The notes beneath the pieces are model-generated. The model was not told the DNA's origin, ran no database searches, and saw only the letters and a program-made list of their open reading frames with translations. Shown here one piece after another: positions 15,234 to 40,165 of a DNA stretch of 43,820 bases. This DNA is from Bryobacteraceae bacterium (GTDB lineage Bacteria > Acidobacteriota > Terriglobia > Bryobacterales > Bryobacteraceae): NCBI GenBank assembly GCA_014860455.1, contig JACZJQ010000080.1:1-43820 (forward strand), in the 5' to 3' direction. Position numbers and translations under genes: made by a program. Position 1 is the first letter of the stretch. Each line of letters starts with the position of its first letter.

Positions 15234-15260
15234 TTGGCACTCGTCATGGATGTGTGCTAA
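15234..15260 (+). promoter_or_regulatory. CIRCE operator (HrcA binding site)
   Basis: The sequence TTGGCACTC-N9-GTGTGCTAA (15234-15242 and 15252-15260) matches the CIRCE consensus TTAGCACTC-N9-GAGTGCTAA with one substitution per arm. It lies about 90 bp upstream of the groES start. TTGGCA (15234-15239) could serve as -35 and TAATAA (15258-15263) as -10 with 18 bp spacing, so bound HrcA would cover the promoter. hrcA itself is not in the window. Confidence 0.93.
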
Positions 15261-15345: not shown

Positions 15346-15642
15346 ATGCAGATTCGTCCGCTCTATGACCGGCTGGTGATCCGCCGCGTCGAGCAAACAG
15401 AAACCATGATGAACGGCATCATCATTCCCGACACCGCGAAAGAGAAGCCCCAGGAGGGCGAGGTTATGGCGGCTGGCCGCGGCAAGCGGCTGGAAGACGG
15501 CAGTGTGGTTCCGCTTGACGTCAAAGTCGGCGACCGCATCCTGTTTGGCAAGTACTCGGGCAGCGATATCAAAATCGACGGCGAGGAGTTCCTCATCCTG
15601 CGTGAGGACGAAGTTCTCGGCGTGCTCGAGGGCGGCAAGTAA
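15346..15642 (+). CDS. groES: Co-chaperonin GroES
   Basis: GroES caps the GroEL ring in the cytoplasm. The 98-residue product starts [16 protein letters not shown], includes the mobile-loop region ([20 protein letters not shown], with IIIP at the hydrophobic tip) and ends with the conserved [13 protein letters not shown] strand. GGAGG at 15331-15335 fixes the ATG at 15346; the frame is open 32 codons upstream, but that stretch includes the operator and is not coding. groEL follows after 44 bp. Heat-shock control by HrcA is predicted from the upstream CIRCE. Confidence 0.98.
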
Positions 15643-15671
15643 ACAGGCCCCCCGCAAGTTCTAGACATTGA

Positions 15672-17318
<1,647 letters not shown>

Positions 17319-28816: not shown

Positions 28817-29818
28817 ATGGATGCTCCGGAACTGACGCCCGCCGGGTGCGGCCGTCTGTCGATCGAACTCGCCTCCCAGGCGCTGGCCCGGACGGCAGCG
28901 ACGGCGGAACCGGCAATTCAACGCGCCGTTGAGCTGATCGCGTCGAACCCCGGCAAGGTGGTGGTCACGGGCATGGGCAAGTCCGGGCTCATCGGCCGCA
29001 AAATCAGCTCCACGCTGACATCCACCGGAACCCCGGCGGTCTTTCTTCACCCCGCTGAGGCCGTCCATGGCGACTTTGGCGTCTATGCGCCCGGCGAAGT
29101 CACGATCCTGCTTTCCAACAGCGGATCCACCGAGGAACTGGTCCGGTTGCTGCCGACGCTCAAGCGGTTTGAATCGCCGCTGATCGGCATCCTGGGCAAT
29201 CCGGCTTCACCGCTGGCCAAAGCCGTGGATGTCCTGCTCGATGCCAGCGTCGATCGTGAAGGCGACCCACACTCGATGGTGCCCACCACCAGCGCCATCG
29301 TCGCTTTGGCTCTCGGCGATGCCCTGGCGGTCGCGCTCATGGCTCGTAACGACTTCACCCCAGAGGACTTTGGCGTCTTCCACCCCGGCGGGCAGATCGG
29401 CCGCAACCTGCTGCTGCGGGTGCGCGACGTCATGCACACCGGCGATGAAGTCGCCTGGGTCGGCACCGGCGACTCCATTAAGGATGTCGTCATCGCCATG
29501 ACCCAGCGTCCGCTTGGCGCTGCTTGCGTCGTTGATACCCAGCACCGGCTCGCCGGATTGATCACCGACGGCGATCTCCGCCGTGCCCTACGCAACCACG
29601 ACGACCTGCGCCCGCTCACCGCCACCGCCATCATGACCGCCCGCCCACTCACCGCCTCGCCCGACCTTCGCCTGGACGCCGCCCTGCGCCGCATGGAAGA
29701 CCGCCCGAGCCAGGTTTCCGTTCTTCCCGTCGTCGCGCCCGACTCCGGCCGGGCGCTTGGACTGCTCCGGCTTCACGACATTCTTCTTGGCCGGACAGGC
29801 CAATCCGTGACAAAGTGA
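28817..29818 (+). CDS. kdsD: Arabinose-5-phosphate isomerase, KdsD/KpsF type
   Basis: KdsD makes D-arabinose 5-phosphate from ribulose 5-phosphate, the first step to Kdo for LPS. The 333-residue protein has a SIS domain (about 35-190: VVVTGMGKSGLIGRKISSTLTSTG, HGDFGVYAPGE, LLSNSGSTEEL) and two C-terminal CBS domains (from about 200, VRDVMHTGDEVAWV, to the end). FHPGGQIGRNLLLRVRDVMH is the typical linker. It fits the LPS-export genes elsewhere in the window. The ATG at 28817 follows the previous stop after one base. Confidence 0.95.
   Translation: MDAPELTPAGCGRLSIELASQALARTAATAEPAIQRAVELIASNPGKVVVTGMGKSGLIGRKISSTLTSTGTPAVFLHPAEAVHGDFGVYAPGEVTILLSNSGSTEELVRLLPTLKRFESPLIGILGNPASPLAKAVDVLLDASVDREGDPHSMVPTTSAIVALALGDALAVALMARNDFTPEDFGVFHPGGQIGRNLLLRVRDVMHTGDEVAWVGTGDSIKDVVIAMTQRPLGAACVVDTQHRLAGLITDGDLRRALRNHDDLRPLTATAIMTARPLTASPDLRLDAALRRMEDRPSQVSVLPVVAPDSGRALGLLRLHDILLGRTGQSVTK
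29787..29803 (+). other. Palindrome at the kdsD end, upstream of the NO reductase gene
   Basis: TTGGCC-GGACA-GGCCAA is a perfect inverted repeat within the last codons of kdsD. No T-run follows, so it is not a clear terminator; it may be a regulator site or chance. Confidence 0.4.
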
Positions 29819-29827
29819 CTAAAGTCA
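29816..29827 (+). promoter_or_regulatory. Palindrome TGACT-AA-AGTCA before the NO reductase gene
   Basis: This 12-base inverted repeat begins at the kdsD stop codon and lies 75 bp before the NO reductase start. It does not match the FNR/DNR consensus (TTGAT-N4-ATCAA). An operator role is only a suggestion. Confidence 0.35.
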
Positions 29828-29865
29828 TACCTTCCCAGCAAGATTCTCGGTACCCTCGTTCGGTA

Positions 29866-29891
29866 GGCGCGCCAGGGCGCGCCGGAAGGAG
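29866..29891 (+). promoter_or_regulatory. Leader hairpin abutting the ribosome-binding site of the NO reductase gene
   Basis: GGCGCGCC (29866-29873) and GGCGCGCC (29876-29883) can form a 7-bp G/C stem with a CAGG loop. The ribosome-binding site GGAAGGAG (29884-29891) follows immediately, so folding could affect translation of the gene starting at 29902. Confidence 0.5.
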
Positions 29892-29901
29892 TCGTAAACG
29901 C

Positions 29902-32133
29902 ATGAAAAAGCTGTGGTGGAGTTTCGCTGCGGTATTGGTCTTTTCGTTCGGAGTCCTCGGCTGGATCGGGACCCGGATCTACCAGGAGAAACCGCCGCTT
30001 CCGGCTGAGGTAGTCACTTCCACTGGCGAGAAGGTGATCCCGGCCGGGATGATCGAGAAGGGCCAGAACGTCTGGCAGTCGATGGGTGGCATGCAGGTGG
30101 GCTCGATCTGGGGCCACGGCAGCTACGTGGCGCCGGACTGGACAGCCGACTGGCTGCACCGCGAACTGGTCTTTGTCCTGAACCGCTGGGCGCAAGCCGA
30201 GCACCAGAAACCCTACGATCAACTCTCCGCGGAGCAGAAGGCCGGCTTGCAAGGCCGCCTGACCGAGTTGTACAAAACGAATTCCTACGATGCCGAAACC
30301 GAGGTCATCACAATCGACCCGGTCCGCGCCGATGCCGTCCAGGCGAACACGGAGTATTACACCGCGCTGTTCCGTGACGGCAGGCCGGAATACGCCATCC
30401 CGGCCGGCGCGATTCCGGATCCCGAGCGGGCCAAGGCGATGTCGGCGTTCGTCTGGTGGACGGCGTGGTCGGCTTCCACAAACCGCCCGAACGACAACCT
30501 CACTTATACCGGCAACTGGCCGCACGAGCCGCTGATCGGCAACCGCCCGACGGGCGAGGCCGTGATGTGGACCGGCGTCAGCATCATCATGCTGCTGGGC
30601 GGCATCAGCGCCCTGATCTGGTGGTATGCATCACAAAAGAAAGAGGAAGAGATCGACCTCGTACCGGCGTCCGATCCACTTGAATCCTGGCGCTCGACGG
30701 CCAGCCAGTTGGCCACGATGAAGTATTTCTGGGTTGTCGCGCTGCTGATTCTGGTTCAGATTGTCATGGGCGTGGTGACGGCGCATTACGGCGTCGAGGG
30801 TGACGGCTTCTACGGCATCAAGCTCTCCGAGATCCTGCCGTATTCGGTTACGCGCACATGGCACGTCCAGTTGGGCATCTTCTGGATCGCCACGGCGTGG
30901 CTGGCCGCCGGCCTGTTCATCGGACCGCTGGTGAGCGGCAAGGAGCCGCGGTTCCAGAGCGCGCTGGTCAACGTGCTGTTTGGGGCGCTGCTGCTGATCG
31001 TAGTCGGCTCACTGACGGGCGAGTGGATGAGCATTATGAACAAGATGAGCGACTCGCAGTCGTTCATGTGGGGCCACCAGGGCTACGAGTATGTCGATCT
31101 GGGCCGCGGCTGGCAGGTGCTGCTGTTTGCCGGGCTGATTATCTGGCTGGCGCTGGTGGTGAGGTCGGTGCGGCCGGCGCTGGCGCGGAGTCCGGAGTTG
31201 ACCAAACGAAGTGAGCAGAGGCCGCTGCTGGCTCTGTTCCTGGTGTCGAGCGCGGCGATTGGGCTGTTCTATGGCGCCGGCCTGACATGGGGCCACCACA
31301 CGCACATTTCGATCGTCGAATACTGGCGCTGGTGGGTTGTCCATCTGTGGGTTGAGGGATTCTTTGAGGTCTTTGCCACTGCGGTGATTGCCTTCTTCTT
31401 CATGCGGTTAGGGCTGATCCGGCCGCAACTCGCAGCCCAGGGCGCGCTGCTGTCGGCCACCATCTACCTGGCCGGCGGCATTATCGGCACCTGCCACCAC
31501 CTGTATTGGTCGGGCACGCCGACCTTGGCGCTGGCCTGGGGTTCGGTGTTCAGCGCGTTGGAAGTGGTGCCGCTGACGCTGGTGGCCTATGCCGCGATCG
31601 ACGACCTGCGGCGCGGGCGGTCGGCGCCGTGGGCGATCCGCTACAAGTGGCCGATCTACTTCTTCGTCTCGGTGGCGTTCTGGAACATGGTGGGCGCGGG
31701 CCTGTTCGGCTTCATGATCAACCCGCCGATCGCGCTGTATTACATGCAGGGGCTGAACACGACGCCGCTGCATGGACATGCCGCGTTGTTTGGCGTCTAC
31801 GGGATGCTGGGCATCGGGCTGATGCTGGTGTGCCTGCGGGCGCTGAACCCCGAGCAGAAGTGGCGCGAGGGGTGGCTGAAGTTCTCGTTCTGGGCAATGA
31901 ACATCGGGCTGCTGGCGATGTGTGTGCTGAGTCTGCTGCCGGTGGGCTTGATGCAGACGTGGGCGAGCGTGGACCAGGGCTACTGGTATGCGCGCGACAC
32001 GGAGTTCATGCAGCAGCCCCTGATGCAGACGCTTCGTTGGCTGAGGGCGCCTGGCGACACGCTGTTCGCCATCGGCGCGGTGGTGCTGGTGGCGTTTGTG
32101 TTCACGGTGAGGCCGCGCAAGAACGCGGCGTAG
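29902..32133 (+). CDS. norB: Quinol-dependent nitric oxide reductase (qNOR, NorB/NorZ type)
   Basis: qNOR reduces 2 NO to N2O in the cytoplasmic membrane with quinol as donor. The 743-residue protein is in the qNOR range. It has an N-terminal span, a periplasmic domain (GSIWGHGSYVAPDWTADWLHRE) fused in front of the catalytic subunit, and about 13 further spans. Candidate haem and iron ligands lie in TRTWHVQLGIFWIATAWL, WGHHTHISIVEYWRWWVVHLWVEGFFEVFAT, GTCHHLYWSG and LHGHAALFGVYG. GGAAGGAG at 29884-29891 supports the ATG at 29902; a longer frame from 29815 lacks a ribosome-binding site. It stands alone, without NorC, NorD or NorQ, which suits NO detoxification more than denitrification. Confidence 0.93.
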   Translation: MKKLWWSFAAVLVFSFGVLGWIGTRIYQEKPPLPAEVVTSTGEKVIPAGMIEKGQNVWQSMGGMQVGSIWGHGSYVAPDWTADWLHRELVFVLNRWAQAEHQKPYDQLSAEQKAGLQGRLTELYKTNSYDAETEVITIDPVRADAVQANTEYYTALFRDGRPEYAIPAGAIPDPERAKAMSAFVWWTAWSASTNRPNDNLTYTGNWPHEPLIGNRPTGEAVMWTGVSIIMLLGGISALIWWYASQKKEEEIDLVPASDPLESWRSTASQLATMKYFWVVALLILVQIVMGVVTAHYGVEGDGFYGIKLSEILPYSVTRTWHVQLGIFWIATAWLAAGLFIGPLVSGKEPRFQSALVNVLFGALLLIVVGSLTGEWMSIMNKMSDSQSFMWGHQGYEYVDLGRGWQVLLFAGLIIWLALVVRSVRPALARSPELTKRSEQRPLLALFLVSSAAIGLFYGAGLTWGHHTHISIVEYWRWWVVHLWVEGFFEVFATAVIAFFFMRLGLIRPQLAAQGALLSATIYLAGGIIGTCHHLYWSGTPTLALAWGSVFSALEVVPLTLVAYAAIDDLRRGRSAPWAIRYKWPIYFFVSVAFWNMVGAGLFGFMINPPIALYYMQGLNTTPLHGHAALFGVYGMLGIGLMLVCLRALNPEQKWREGWLKFSFWAMNIGLLAMCVLSLLPVGLMQTWASVDQGYWYARDTEFMQQPLMQTLRWLRAPGDTLFAIGAVVLVAFVFTVRPRKNAA

Positions 32134-32161
32134 AGGCCGGACCAGACGCCAATTGAGACTG

Positions 32162-32203
32162 CGGCGGGGAGTTCGTTTGATCTCCCCGCCGATTCTGCTT
32201 TGG
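32162..32203 (+). terminator. Intrinsic terminator after the NO reductase gene
   Basis: CGGCGGGGAG (32162-32171) and CTCCCCGCCG (32182-32191) form a perfect 10-bp stem with a 10-base loop. The T-rich tail (ATTCTGCTTT) is imperfect. Confidence 0.78.
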
Positions 32204-32212
32204 CGGCGCAGA

Positions 32213-32242
32213 TTGACAGTGGTTGGCGCGGGTACCTACAAT
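32213..32242 (+). promoter_or_regulatory. Strong sigma-70-type promoter
   Basis: TTGACA (32213-32218), an 18-bp spacer and TACAAT (32237-32242) are almost consensus. Transcription should begin near 32249, about 225 bp before the OmpH-like start codon. Confidence 0.85.
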
Positions 32243-32248
32243 TCGGAA

Positions 32249-32460
32249 GGTGGGTTCTGCGGACGCGGAGTGAGGAATTGCTGCGCCTGCGGACCCAAAC
32301 CGGCCTTTCCGGCGTCTAAAGTCAAAGGAAACCGAAGGAATGCCCACAGGGGCGGCCGCCTGACCGTGTGTTCTCGGAGCGCCGGCGGCGATGAGGATCC
32401 GGTGCTTCAGGCAAGGACGAGGTAGTGGCGGCGCCCGGATGGACCGGGCCAGAGTTTTTT
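32249..32460 (+). ncRNA. Candidate structured RNA or attenuated leader upstream of the OmpH-like gene
   Basis: The region between the promoter at 32213-32242 and a terminator-like hairpin has no supported ORF. It can fold as several helices: GGGTTC/GGACCC (32252-32257 with 32291-32296) enclosing CGCGG/CTGCG; CCGG/CCGG (32300-32312); GCCTGA/TCAGGC (32358-32363 with 32407-32412) enclosing GCGCCGG/CCGGTGC. The end is GCCCGG-ATGGA-CCGGGC (32433-32449), then CAGAG and TTTTTT (32455-32460). It could be a roughly 210-nt independent RNA or a leader that controls the downstream gene. I see no 6S, SRP or RNase P signature. Folds are by eye. Confidence 0.55.
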
Positions 32461-32474
32461 AGAATTGGAGAGCG

Positions 32475-33002
32475 ATGATGAGCAACAAAGTGATGCGGCC
32501 CTTCCTGCTTGCCGCGGCGATGCTGGTGACGGTGGGAGCCGCTCATGCGCAGTTGAAGGTTGGCGTGGTGGATCTTCAGAAGGTCCTTCAGGGCACCGCG
32601 GAGATCAAACAGGCCGAAGCCGACCTGAAGGCGCGGTTCGGGCCGCGGCAGGACGAACTCGCCGCGACCGAAAGGGAGTTGGCGAAGCTCCAGCAGGAGT
32701 TTGAGGCCAACCAGACCAAGTACACCGAAGCGGCGCTGGCCGACCTGACCGCCCGCATCCAGAACCGCCAGCGCATTTATCAGCGCAACGCCCAGGCTTT
32801 GCAGGAAGAAGTGAACCGCGACCGCCAGGACATCTTGAGCCGGGTGGGACAGCGGCTTCAGGAGATCGTGAAGAAGGTGGCCGAGGCGCAGGCGTTTGAC
32901 ATGGTGGTGGACTCCCAGTCGACGCTGTACTCGAAGCCGGCCCTCGACATCTCGGCCGCCGTGACGACCGCCTACGACGCCGCCTATCCCGTGAAGAAGT
33001 AA
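32475..33002 (+). CDS. OmpH/Skp-family periplasmic chaperone
   Basis: This 175-residue protein has a signal peptide with likely cleavage after Ala25 (AHA-QLK). The mature protein starts with the conserved strand LKVGVVDLQKVLQGT and continues as a long charged coiled coil (about 45-130) before a final beta segment DMVVDSQSTLYSKPALDIS. That is the Skp/OmpH tentacle architecture, which holds unfolded outer-membrane proteins in the periplasm. GGAG (32467-32470) lies just after the terminator T-run and before tandem ATG codons at 32475 and 32478. The following gene starts 14 bp after the stop. Confidence 0.9.
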   Translation: MMSNKVMRPFLLAAAMLVTVGAAHAQLKVGVVDLQKVLQGTAEIKQAEADLKARFGPRQDELAATERELAKLQQEFEANQTKYTEAALADLTARIQNRQRIYQRNAQALQEEVNRDRQDILSRVGQRLQEIVKKVAEAQAFDMVVDSQSTLYSKPALDISAAVTTAYDAAYPVKK

Positions 33003-33016
33003 GCAGGGAGGCCTAT

Positions 33017-33496
33017 ATGGCCGGTTTCTTCGACCAGTACGAGACGAAAAGCAGCCTGCAAGAGCGGGTCGCCAAATGGTTTTTTGTGGCGATCGCGGCG
33101 GTGTTGCTGCTGTGGGGCCTGGACTGGGTGCTGGCGAAGCTGGGCAAGGACAACTTGTCTGACTTCCGTGCCCAGTGGCGGGTCCGTTCTTTTGTTAACG
33201 CCCTGGAATCAAAGAGCTACGAAGAGGCCTACAGCATGTGGGGCTGCACCAAAGCCAGCCCGTGCCGCGACTACGCCTTCGAGAAGTTTATGGAGGACTG
33301 GGGTCCGAACAGTCCGAATGCGGCTCTGGTGAACGGGGAAAAGTTGGTGACGCGTCACTGTGCGACGGGGATTATCCGGACGGACCTGCTGCCGAACAAG
33401 GAGATGGTCCATCTGTACGTGGACCGGGGGGATTTGAACATCAGTTTTGCGCCCTGGGGCGATTCCTGCTCGGCGCCGGCGATGAAGGTACCGTAG
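33017..33496 (+). CDS. Membrane-anchored protein of unknown function
   Basis: The 159-residue product has a short cytoplasmic N-terminus, one membrane span (about 22-40, FFVAIAAVLLLWGLDWVLA) and an exported domain of about 115 residues. The exported part begins with a helical FRAQWRVRSFVNALESKSYEEAYSMWGC stretch reminiscent of small NTF2-like lipoprotein-type folds and has four cysteines (77, 83, 115, 151), which could form two disulfides. GGGAGG (33006-33011) supports the ATG. It probably shares a transcript with the OmpH-like gene. I do not recognise the family. Confidence 0.8.
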   Translation: MAGFFDQYETKSSLQERVAKWFFVAIAAVLLLWGLDWVLAKLGKDNLSDFRAQWRVRSFVNALESKSYEEAYSMWGCTKASPCRDYAFEKFMEDWGPNSPNAALVNGEKLVTRHCATGIIRTDLLPNKEMVHLYVDRGDLNISFAPWGDSCSAPAMKVP

Positions 33497-33832
33497 GCGC
33501 GTATCCAGCATTACCGCCGGCTGCGTCTGACGCAAAGTCGGCCGCCTGCCAGATAGCAGCGCCATTATGTTGGGGACTGCGTTGTCCCGCCCGCTCAATC
33601 CGCATTCATCCGCCGTCTCAGAGTCCTTATACGCCGGCGGGGACTCCGCTTCGGGTTTCAGGCTGATGCGATGTGCGCGCGGCTCGGAGAGGATTTCGGC
33701 AGCAATGGGGGAGGGGCGAGCGGGGAGTGGGGCGGACGCCGGACGCGTCTTCGCCGGATTCATTGGGAACGAACTATGATGCCCACTCCTGATCCCGTCC
33801 TTCCATACTTGCCAGGCGCCGGGAGTTGAGGT
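33497..33832. other. Gap between convergent genes, no gene supported
   Basis: This 336-bp stretch contains only overlapping high-GC frames without a ribosome-binding site or recognisable domain. A small palindrome TGCGTC-T-GACGCA lies about 25 bp into it, flanked by GCCG and CGGC, and may mark the end of the preceding transcript, but no T-run follows. Confidence 0.5.
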
Positions 33833-36817
33833 CTACAGCACTGTGCGTTGAATGCGCAGTCCGTCGCGGGCGATCTGCCAATCGGTGGCGTTCATGGAGG
33901 AGCGGAGTTCCGCAGCCGCCTCCTCGGAACGGGCGAGGAATATCATGAAACCGCCACCGCCGGCGCCGGCGAGTTTGGCTCCTCGAATGAGCGGACGGGC
34001 ACGGTCGAGCAACGCTTCGACGGGGGCGTTTGTGGTGTGGGGGTCCATGCGCTGGTTGAGTTCCCAATGGCGGTTCATGAGGGCGCCAAGGGTGTCCCAA
34101 TCGGCATCCTGCATGGCGTGCGCCATCTCCAGCGCCAGCGTCTTGATGCTGTGCAACACCTGGACTGTATGGGTTTCGCGGGCGAGGTAGCTGCCCACGA
34201 CCTGCTGGAGGAGGTTGCGGGCGATGCGGCGGATACCGGTGTAGGCGAGCACGACGAGCCGCTCGAGCTCGGCCTCGCGGTCGAGCGACCAGTTCAACGG
34301 CTGGTAGCGGAGTTTCTGGGCGGGTCCGGGCGCGGTGCTTAAGAGCTTGATTCCGGGGAAGATGCCGCCGGCCTGATCCTGCCAGCCGCCGCCGGCGCCC
34401 ATCATCTGTTCGAGGTCGAGAACGAGATCGCTCACCTGTTGTGTTGAGAGGCGCCGCCCGAACATCTCCATCGTGGCCCGGACAACTGCCGCGGCGAGTA
34501 TGGAACTGGAACCGAGGCCTGAGCCGACGGGCAGATCGGCGGAGGTGGAGATTTCGATGCCGCCGCCGAGCCGGTCGAGCAGGGCAGGCAAGGGCTGGTC
34601 TTCCTGAAAGAGGCCGGTGAGGCGCAGGGCGCACTTGGAGATGGCGAAGGCGTCGCCGGCGGTGGCGGATTGGAGTTCGTCGGAGGAAGTGCGGTATTCG
34701 GCGGTTTCACCGGTGTCCTCGGAACGGAGGCGGATGACGGGCGAGTCGAGAAGGCGTGCCCGGCAGCGGATCTGGTAGCCGCCGTTGAGTGCGACGGCGG
34801 AGTTCAACACGGTTCCGCCCCAGTCGAGGCAGAACGGAGGAGTGTCGCTCCAGCCTCCGCCGAAATCGATCCGCGCGGGGGCGGAGACTTCGACGGCGGA
34901 TAGGGTGAAGCCGCCGCCGGGGGTGATGCGCGACCGTCCGGCGAGGGTCGACACAGCCGTGGAAACCAATGAAAATGCGCGGCTCTTGAGGGAAGCGGCA
35001 CGTCCGTCATGTCCGGCCTGGGCGAAGAAAAGCGAAGCCTGATAGGCGAGGCTGGCTGCGGTGGAGGGATCGGCCTGTTGATGGGCGGAGGCGTGTTTCT
35101 CGATGAGTTCGCCGGCGCCGGTGAGGGCGGCGAGGCCGGGGGCGTAGGCGAGCACGGGGCGAAGGTCACTGCCGGCGAGGGCGAGTTCGGTGACGGTGGC
35201 GCGCCAGCGAAGGCGGTTGCGGAGGTCGCGTTGGGCGCCTTCGGCCTGGGTGTCGGCCCATTGTGCGCTGCTGGCGAGCGAGTGGCGGGGCATGGCGCGC
35301 CAGGCGCCGGCCAGATTTTCGCTGGATTCGCCCAGGAGCCAGCGGGCGTAGCGCCAGCAAGTGGGGGGATCGGCGATGGGGTAGAGTTGGGCGTTCCAGA
35401 GGCAGCGTTCGGAGGCGGGCAGACCGGGCCAGACGTCATCCGCTGAGATGCCAAGCAGATCAAGGTGGGTGAGGATTGGGCGTGCGAACCAGAGGGCGCC
35501 ATCGCCGGCGAGGGATTTGGGGTCGTCCTCGACGCCGTAGACGCGGATGACGGTACCGGCGGGAAGGTGGCAGGCGGAGGTTTCGAGTTGATGCGCGACG
35601 GTGTTCTCGGGCAGTTCGACATTGCCGGGGATGGAGGACAGGCCGTGGGCGACGGCACTTCGCGAGATGCGCAACGTATCTTCGAGGCAGCATTCCATGG
35701 CCAGGGCGCCGGGTCCAATCTCGCCGCCGCCGAGGACGCTATCGAGGATGACTCCGCTGCAGACGACGTTGGCGGGGGCCTCGGAGCCGAGCCGGGCATG
35801 AGCCGAGTAGAGATGTGAAAGGTCGGTCTCCTCGGTCATCATCTGGCGGAACAAGCGGGTGGTGCCGATATGGGAGAACTCGCCTTCGAGGGGGTCGCAG
35901 TGAAATCCGGCGGGTGAGAGCACGGCGGCCAGGGCCTGGAATTGCTCAGGCGAGGATGGGTCGGGTTGCCAGTGGCGGGTGAGGGCGCCGGTGAAGTGGG
36001 TATAGAGGTCGAGCGGCAGGGCAGGCAATCCGGAGAGGGCAACGGCGGTGAGTCCGGCTGAGGTTTGGGGATCGAAGCGCAGGATGCCGGTATCGACAGC
36101 AACCATGCCGTCTGAGCGAATGCCGCCAGCGGCTTCGACCTCGGTGCGGCTGGGTTTCTGGAGGAACGAATAGACGATGCCATCCTCGCCGGATACGTAG
36201 ACACCGTGCTGGGAACCGACATCGGGGCGTTGCCAAAGGGCGACTCCGGAGACTCCCGGGCGGCGCCAGTTGAGCCCGTCGGGTTCAAAAACAAGCAGGA
36301 CATCGCCGGAGCCGACGGCGAGGCCGGCGTCCATGCGTTCGCACCAGAGTGAAGAAAGGGCGAGGGTTTCGTCAAAGACGGTGGAGGCGCCGCCTCCGGG
36401 TGCGCGGACTGGAAGGGCGCTGAACAGTTTGCCGGCGGCCGAGAACTGAGGCAGGCGGCGGGAGTCGCCGCCGGAATGGATCATGAGGACGCGGTTGGAT
36501 TGCCACCAGGCGGCAAGGTGCTGGGTTTGGGGATGCGGGAAGAGCGATTCGGCGAGGGTGCGGAGGGCGTTGAGGGTGGCTCCGCCGCTGCCGGGGCGGG
36601 AGGATTCGGGGTCGGGTACTACTATGAATTGGGTCGCGGAAGGGAGACTTTGGCGGCGGCGGCGGTCGTCGATCTGGCGCGAGTATAGATCGGCCTGGCG
36701 GCGGGAACTGGCTGTGATCAGGACCGCGGACCACCAGGGCCGATGTCCGGCGATGGCCTCGGCATAGTCGGCGTGCGCGCGAGTGGTGATGTTGGACAGG
36801 GTCTGGGTAGCGCCCAT
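33833..36817 (-). CDS. fkp: Bifunctional fucokinase/L-fucose-1-P guanylyltransferase
   Basis: Fkp converts free L-fucose to GDP-fucose in two steps in the cytoplasm. The 994-residue length is close to Bacteroides Fkp. The N-terminal half is the pyrophosphorylase, with VVPDPESSRPGSGGATLNAL (67-86) as nucleotide-sugar loop, and a left-handed helix-like middle. The C-terminal 370 residues are a GHMP kinase: FGGWSDTPPFCLDWGG, the ATP loop LPVGSGLGSSSILAA (about 762-776) and KLAGAGGGGFMIF near the end. ATG at 36817 is the likely start. It follows the ABC ATPase by 57 bp on the same strand, but no fucosyltransferase or capsule genes are adjacent. Similar GHMP pyrophosphorylase fusions for other sugars cannot be excluded. 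Confidence 0.9.
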   Translation of the reverse strand: MGATQTLSNITTRAHADYAEAIAGHRPWWSAVLITASSRRQADLYSRQIDDRRRRQSLPSATQFIVVPDPESSRPGSGGATLNALRTLAESLFPHPQTQHLAAWWQSNRVLMIHSGGDSRRLPQFSAAGKLFSALPVRAPGGGASTVFDETLALSSLWCERMDAGLAVGSGDVLLVFEPDGLNWRRPGVSGVALWQRPDVGSQHGVYVSGEDGIVYSFLQKPSRTEVEAAGGIRSDGMVAVDTGILRFDPQTSAGLTAVALSGLPALPLDLYTHFTGALTRHWQPDPSSPEQFQALAAVLSPAGFHCDPLEGEFSHIGTTRLFRQMMTEETDLSHLYSAHARLGSEAPANVVCSGVILDSVLGGGEIGPGALAMECCLEDTLRISRSAVAHGLSSIPGNVELPENTVAHQLETSACHLPAGTVIRVYGVEDDPKSLAGDGALWFARPILTHLDLLGISADDVWPGLPASERCLWNAQLYPIADPPTCWRYARWLLGESSENLAGAWRAMPRHSLASSAQWADTQAEGAQRDLRNRLRWRATVTELALAGSDLRPVLAYAPGLAALTGAGELIEKHASAHQQADPSTAASLAYQASLFFAQAGHDGRAASLKSRAFSLVSTAVSTLAGRSRITPGGGFTLSAVEVSAPARIDFGGGWSDTPPFCLDWGGTVLNSAVALNGGYQIRCRARLLDSPVIRLRSEDTGETAEYRTSSDELQSATAGDAFAISKCALRLTGLFQEDQPLPALLDRLGGGIEISTSADLPVGSGLGSSSILAAAVVRATMEMFGRRLSTQQVSDLVLDLEQMMGAGGGWQDQAGGIFPGIKLLSTAPGPAQKLRYQPLNWSLDREAELERLVVLAYTGIRRIARNLLQQVVGSYLARETHTVQVLHSIKTLALEMAHAMQDADWDTLGALMNRHWELNQRMDPHTTNAPVEALLDRARPLIRGAKLAGAGGGGFMIFLARSEEAAAELRSSMNATDWQIARDGLRIQRTVL

Positions 36818-40088: not shown

Positions 40089-40165
<77 letters not shown>

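Follow-up and report, generated by a model that had tools for sequence, protein, structure and literature searches.

Probable promoter and leader of a former groES2-ompH operon retained upstream of ompH in a Bryobacteraceae genome

What is the stretch of DNA that precedes the OmpH-like gene of this Bryobacteraceae bacterium, in which a strong promoter is followed by some 210 bp that hold no evident gene? The initial annotation described G/C-rich helices and a hairpin with a run of six T in this interval, and proposed either an independent small RNA or an attenuation leader for an envelope chaperone gene. The window analyzed here (43,820 nucleotides) comes from a draft genome of 5.3 Mb, G000, of which it forms a single contig. 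G000 has a sister genome, G003; the relatives compared include genomes labelled ‘Candidatus Solibacter’, Paludibaculum, Bryobacteraceae bacterium and Bryobacterales bacterium. The downstream gene does belong to the OmpH family, as had been proposed, and encodes a product of 175 residues (Table 1). OmpH-family matches are found in 60 of 61 genomes, and 20 of 237 family genomes match at E 1e-45, the present genome being included in both counts. Our focal group, also numbering 20 with its own genome, consists of 19 of the latter (G166 was excluded) together with G001, which was kept although a contig end cuts its ompH. Most of loci L120-L131, being duplicates of species among the G genomes, were left out of the counts. 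DNA similarity alone is uninformative at this locus, with matches at E 1 in 57 of the 60 other genomes, and the only long match is to the sister genome (E 5.5e-66).

The promoter is composed of TTGACA (32213-32218) and TACAAT (32237-32242) with an 18-base spacer, and matches the consensus at 11 of 12 letters. It is the sole site at the scan threshold within 31000-34000 (shuffles gave a mean of 0.5, sd 0.6). A homologous site with TTGA and the same spacer is present in all 20 focal genomes, which bears out the near-consensus promoter of the initial annotation. The -35 element reads TTGACA in six of these and TTGAGN in the other 14, and the -10 element is TACAAT in all except G014, which has TATAGT. 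The two sister genomes agree at 28 of the 30 promoter positions, and their similarity begins at the -35 box, so that a rearrangement appears to end there.

The gene order in relatives is the key to the locus. In 17 of the 20 focal genomes (G001, G002, G014, nine of group g83 and five of group g74), the gene immediately preceding ompH is a groES, here called groES2, with a leader of 83-98 bases between promoter and gene. In the remaining three (G000, G003 and G017), groES2 is absent before ompH, and the promoter and leader are present. The promoter and leader align across groups g1, g15 and g12, and also across g1, g15 and g83, with g74 more distant. A census of full-length groES genes gives one each in G000, G003 and G017, in every case adjoining groEL (in G000 this is the groESL copy, at 15352-15624 of the window), and two each in G001, G002 and G014. 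In G000, groES2, which is a further co-chaperonin gene in addition to groESL, is lost, and near relatives have the shared promoter and leader with an intact groES2 at the same place. If the genus labels reflect descent, the gene was lost in the line of G000 and separately in G017, which provides ready comparisons. Two minor observations concern groES genes elsewhere. Locus L099 of this genome (G000:C209, 10-96) has a partial GroES-like N-terminus (21.1 bits) at a contig end, the frame of which runs on into other sequence; this may reflect either a third gene of GroES type or a join made in assembly. Locus L126 (DYJN01000051.1), labelled ‘Arcobacter sp.’, has a groES2-ompH region identical to that of G182 over 500 bases, and this assembly is probably mislabelled.

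The reading we consider probable, at roughly 0.8, is that this DNA once served a groES2-ompH operon as its promoter and 5′ untranslated leader, has been retained and now drives ompH. In the line leading to G000 and G003, groES2 was lost, with its promoter and leader left in place and probably also a fragment of its 3′ end. The ompH genes of the focal group would appear to lack a recognisable promoter of their own. An extended -10 motif, TGTG(T/C/A)TA.., which was defined by eye from ompH upstream regions, is present in 14 of 26 other genomes at 22-63 bases upstream of ompH (among L036-L060; the 26 are the remaining 25 of 30 retained loci plus G166, a partial survey), and directly before ompH in none of the 20 focal genomes. 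This indicates that ompH in the latter probably depended on the groES2 promoter, and such dependence would explain why the promoter was kept: ompH would have been silenced by any deletion that took the promoter along with groES2. The retained promoter would now yield an ompH mRNA with a 5′ untranslated region of ∼225 nt. From these comparisons we infer that transcription starts at the promoter and continues into ompH, and why the promoter was kept. More generally, a locus that looks like a structured small RNA upstream of a gene can be what a lost gene has left behind, preserved since the following gene needs the promoter.

Table 1. Coordinates of features between the promoter and the end of ompH (window positions).
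Feature	Coordinates	Strand	Basis
Sigma-70 type promoter TTGACA-N18-TACAAT, probable former groES2-ompH operon promoter	32213..32242	+	Scan; homologous site in 20/20 genomes
Probable retained 5′ leader of lost groES2	32243..~32336	+	Alignments; 3′ boundary set by eye
Helix P1, 5′ arm TGGGT	32251..32255	+	RNAalifold and pair counts, 11 of 20 leaders
Helix P1, 3′ arm ACCCA	32293..32297	+	RNAalifold and pair counts, 11 of 20 leaders
Conserved leader block GGCGTCTAA	32311..32319	+	Alignment of 14 leaders, with C/T variation at two positions
AAAGGAAA, probable remnant of the groES2 Shine-Dalgarno region	32324..32331	+	Alignment to AAGGAG in leaders with an intact groES2
Candidate relic of the groES2 3′ end	32387..32438	+	Co-linear alignment, anchored test; missed by nhmmer profile
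GC hairpin GCCCGG-ATGGA-CCGGGC, earlier called a terminator	32433..32449	+	Scan; G003 retains the stem but has a broken T run
Possible hairpin in which the T run would pair with GGAG (32467-32470), the ompH Shine-Dalgarno	32454..32473	+	Predicted, 8 pairs
ompH, Skp/OmpH family periplasmic chaperone	32475..33002	+	PF03938, E 1.7e-27

The candidate relic in G000 and G003 is placed by the alignment on the last codons of groES2. An anchored test against the 3′ ends of five groES2 genes, for a segment picked after the alignment had been seen, gives a score that is reached by none of 2000 shuffles for G000 and by two of 2000 for G003. When the test is slid along the window on both strands, scores at least this high are obtained at 42 (G000) and 32 (G003) of 17508 placements, with the true groES giving the best. 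An nhmmer profile built from 18 intact ompH-linked groES genes, with which a true groES scores 211 bits, does not detect the relic in either genome. The relic of G017 is matched at its 3′ end by the groES2 DNA profile (14.3 bits, E 2.9e-4 for a target of ∼44 kb), and its local alignments score 56 with the G014 gene (0/400 shuffles, shuffle maximum 39), 43 with the G002 gene (1/400), and 26 with the G001 gene, the last being within the null (169/400). In plain local alignments with three genes, the number of shuffles (out of 400) that do as well is 4, 197 and 365 in G000 and 71, 19 and 50 in G003; scores of the antisense strand are generally close to those of the sense strand (31 versus 33 in G000). 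Homology to groES is thus found by profile and local alignment for G017, and by the anchored test only for G000 and G003, where the scrap is a probable groES2 3′ end.

From the leader to ompH, the sister genomes are alike at 110 of 136 ungapped positions, with 8 gap columns. This exceeds the fourfold sites of ompH (51/80; Fisher p 0.006), and the stretch may therefore be more than debris. Mechanical open reading frames cross it, and the gaps between the two genomes are not multiples of three, which indicates that no reading frame is conserved; the description of ∼210 bp as free of genes holds as far as tested. A leader peptide starting at ATG 32340 was considered and rejected, as the ATG is absent in G003 and is not conserved.

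Both this stretch and the leader look constrained, judging from the alignments, and the leader most so: it is identical in the sister genomes at 80 of 94 positions with one gap column (Fisher p 0.0014 against the same fourfold sites). The set of groES2-ompH operon leaders was defined in this analysis, with G000, which is without groES2, among its defining sequences; G000 has, in cis, the promoter with its 18-base spacer, helix P1, GGCGTCTAA and a purine-rich Shine-Dalgarno remnant. The GGCGTCTAA block is unmatched in six of the 20 leaders (G014 and the g74 genomes, G182-G186), and these were left out of alignment A3 and covariance model R1. Three others (G001, G002 and G017) have the block, but were likewise left out because their 5′ part is unaligned and P1 is partial, so that A3 and R1 are based on 11 of the 20 leaders. 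RNAalifold finds a single helix of five pairs in A3, P1, in which 98.2% of cells are paired, versus at most 45.5% on sliding. The P1 covariation score exceeds all 500 shuffles, whereas as many pair changes on both sides occur in 97 of 500 shuffles, and as many pair types in 379 of 500. The changes on both sides belong to the sisters G000 and G003, and may represent a single event per pair. In G001, G002 and G017, 2, 4 and 1 of the five pairs can form by position. Over all 14 leaders with the block, 61 of 70 cells are paired; swapping the arms gives 56.0 on average, and 21 of 5000 swaps are as good. The compensatory changes sought among relatives are seen in P1 alone, and there to a limited extent, the helix having five pairs.

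At E 0.1, R1 matches 13 of the 237 family genomes (nine g83 and four g1), once each and always before groES2 or ompH, and finds no leader copy away from this site. The search used strict filters with 18 candidates scored per genome, and 11 of the 13 matched genomes are part of the model; the two outside it are G001 (E 0.03) and G002 (E 4.6e-4). The match in G000 spans 32236-32330 (E 1.0e-9, its own sequence being part of the model), and no match at this threshold is found in G017, G014 or g74. The leader holds a small conserved element that matches no known RNA family, and the rest is mostly ordinary gene decay.

The predicted fold of the 214-nt stretch is ordinary (z -1.27; 22 of 200 shuffles fold as well). 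An 8-pair helix in the predicted G000 fold, AGCGCCGG/CCGGTGCT, is impossible in G003 when read by eye. Of the G/C-rich helices described initially, only the 5′-most is supported. The hairpin and the six T (32455-32460) are both present as described, and the stem sequence is preserved in the two species (-11.4 kcal/mol in G000 and -11.7 in G003), but their role as a terminator is doubtful. The T run begins 5 bases past the stem, and is interrupted (TTCTTT) in G003, which alone among the relatives has this stretch; both points speak against an intrinsic terminator or attenuator. A scan found five terminator-like sites, with no clear excess over shuffles (mean 2.4, sd 1.7).

The T run can instead be modelled as pairing with TGGAGAGC over the ompH Shine-Dalgarno sequence, with predicted energies at 37 °C of -2.7 kcal/mol in G000 and -5.3 in G003, where, with the T-to-C change, a C-G pair takes the place of U-G. 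For the G000 hairpin alone, the predicted energies are -5.5, -2.7 and -0.5 kcal/mol at 20, 37 and 50 °C, and in an 80-base fold the Shine-Dalgarno accessibility is 0.14, 0.09 and 0.11 at these temperatures, with no rise upon warming. This accessibility is the third lowest among 38 mechanically chosen window starts, many of which are not real genes; the 0.73 unpaired obtained for G003 refers to another hexamer and not to the ompH Shine-Dalgarno. With one informative substitution in two genomes, the predicted hairpin is a lead only. The idea that the leaders generally mask the Shine-Dalgarno sequence was rejected, since single-sequence folds of 12 leaders, compared by eye, were inconsistent.

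These results bear on the two proposals made initially, of which the leader of an envelope chaperone gene stands in part: the shared promoter and leader lie in cis to groES2-ompH or to ompH. An independent, terminated small RNA of ∼210 nt would account for the promoter, the predicted GC-rich helices, the hairpin and the T run, but we give this reading almost no weight, as it has no stand-alone copies at E 0.1 under the strict filters used, no Rfam match and an ordinary fold energy, the homologous place of its 3′ part is occupied by a protein gene, groES2, in relatives, and the T run is both set apart from the stem and broken in G003. Attenuation of ompH transcription through the hairpin and T run agrees with the preservation of the stem sequence in both species, yet is very unlikely in view of the broken T run and the missing ATG 32340 in G003.

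A cis-regulatory RNA leader, for example one responsive to stress or temperature, that once controlled groES2 and now controls ompH, with the T run pairing with the Shine-Dalgarno in a FourU-like manner, is unlikely. In its favor, the leader is kept across g1 and g83 with P1 and the near-invariant GGCGTCTAA, its identity between the sisters exceeds that of fourfold sites, the hairpin over GGAG is predicted in both species with its pair preserved by the G003 substitution, and groES2 and ompH both encode chaperones. Set against this are the five pairs of P1, with changes on both sides confined to G000 and G003, two unexceptional shuffle measures and partial pairing in G001, G002 and G017, as well as the weakness of the anti-Shine-Dalgarno hairpin, its restriction to two genomes and the flat predicted response of Shine-Dalgarno accessibility to temperature in the G000 fold, and the lack of an Rfam match. 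The fuller form of this idea, namely an unlisted stress-responsive leader of the OmpH-linked groES2 that was re-targeted to OmpH while the junction evolved a U run masking the ompH ribosome binding site, we regard as improbable. If the leader were regulatory, a cytosolic co-chaperonin and a periplasmic chaperone would have come under one RNA element in Acidobacteria. It is similarly doubtful that CC-N14-GGCGTCTAA is a second promoter just before groES2, with -35 and -10 elements of the ECF-sigma type, rather than an RNA element. CGTC is a usual ECF -10 core, and the spacing from CC to GGCGTC is 14 bases in 13 of 14 leaders, but the bases beside CC change jointly with the P1 5′ arm. One pattern applied to 15 genomes gave 26 matches, 12 of them the operon site; the 14 others are comparable to the reversed control (18), and no regulon is seen.

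Rfam 15 (4227 models) at gathering score yields only a tRNA (40092-40165) in the whole window. With the threshold relaxed to E 10, the segment 32134-32480 matches just suhB (15.8 bits on the minus strand, cut-off 41) and mir-611 (15.7 bits, cut-off 90); the covariance search that had been suggested thus returns no family above its cut-off for this segment, and Acido-1 and Acido-Lenti-1 are not among the matches. A U run that can pair with a Shine-Dalgarno sequence, here that of a chaperone gene, recalls FourU and ROSE, which we take to be among the Rfam 15 models; the difference is that no family is matched here, and that the hairpin is predicted in two genomes only. In the available part of one survey (PMC2864571), the Pseudomon-groES motif (RF01721) is listed for Pseudomonas as a conserved groES leader element, and Acido-1 (RF01686) and Acido-Lenti-1 (RF01687) are listed as candidate Acidobacteria RNAs that are not cis-regulatory. 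The groES2-ompH leader resembles the former, so far as that part describes it, in being a conserved element before a groES gene, but it precedes a second, ompH-linked groES rather than groESL, and RF01721 is unmatched even at E 10; neither of the latter two is matched. The groES2-ompH pair of Bryobacteraceae relatives has the same promoter, leader and ompH, and differs from G000 in having groES2. We class this sequence among operon leaders, a familiar type, here with an element specific to the lineage and with the first gene missing; it is undescribed in the open-licence papers searched. A separate locus of this genome, L061 (G000:C218:4888-5088), gives a sub-threshold match to the full 6S model (32 bits, cut-off 46.4), and is perhaps a divergent 6S RNA.

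Two further sites in the window may be mentioned. A GC stem-loop at 32163-32190 (GGCGGGGAG, 10-base loop, CTCCCCGCC) follows the nitric oxide reductase gene (29815-32133); it is possibly the terminator of that gene, and is absent from the terminator scan list. At 15234-15260, before the groESL operon (15352-17249), there is a CIRCE-like operator with two mismatches to TTAGCACTC-N9-GAGTGCTAA, which we take to be the operator consensus; 100 shuffles gave no match, and this putative site suggests HrcA control of groESL.
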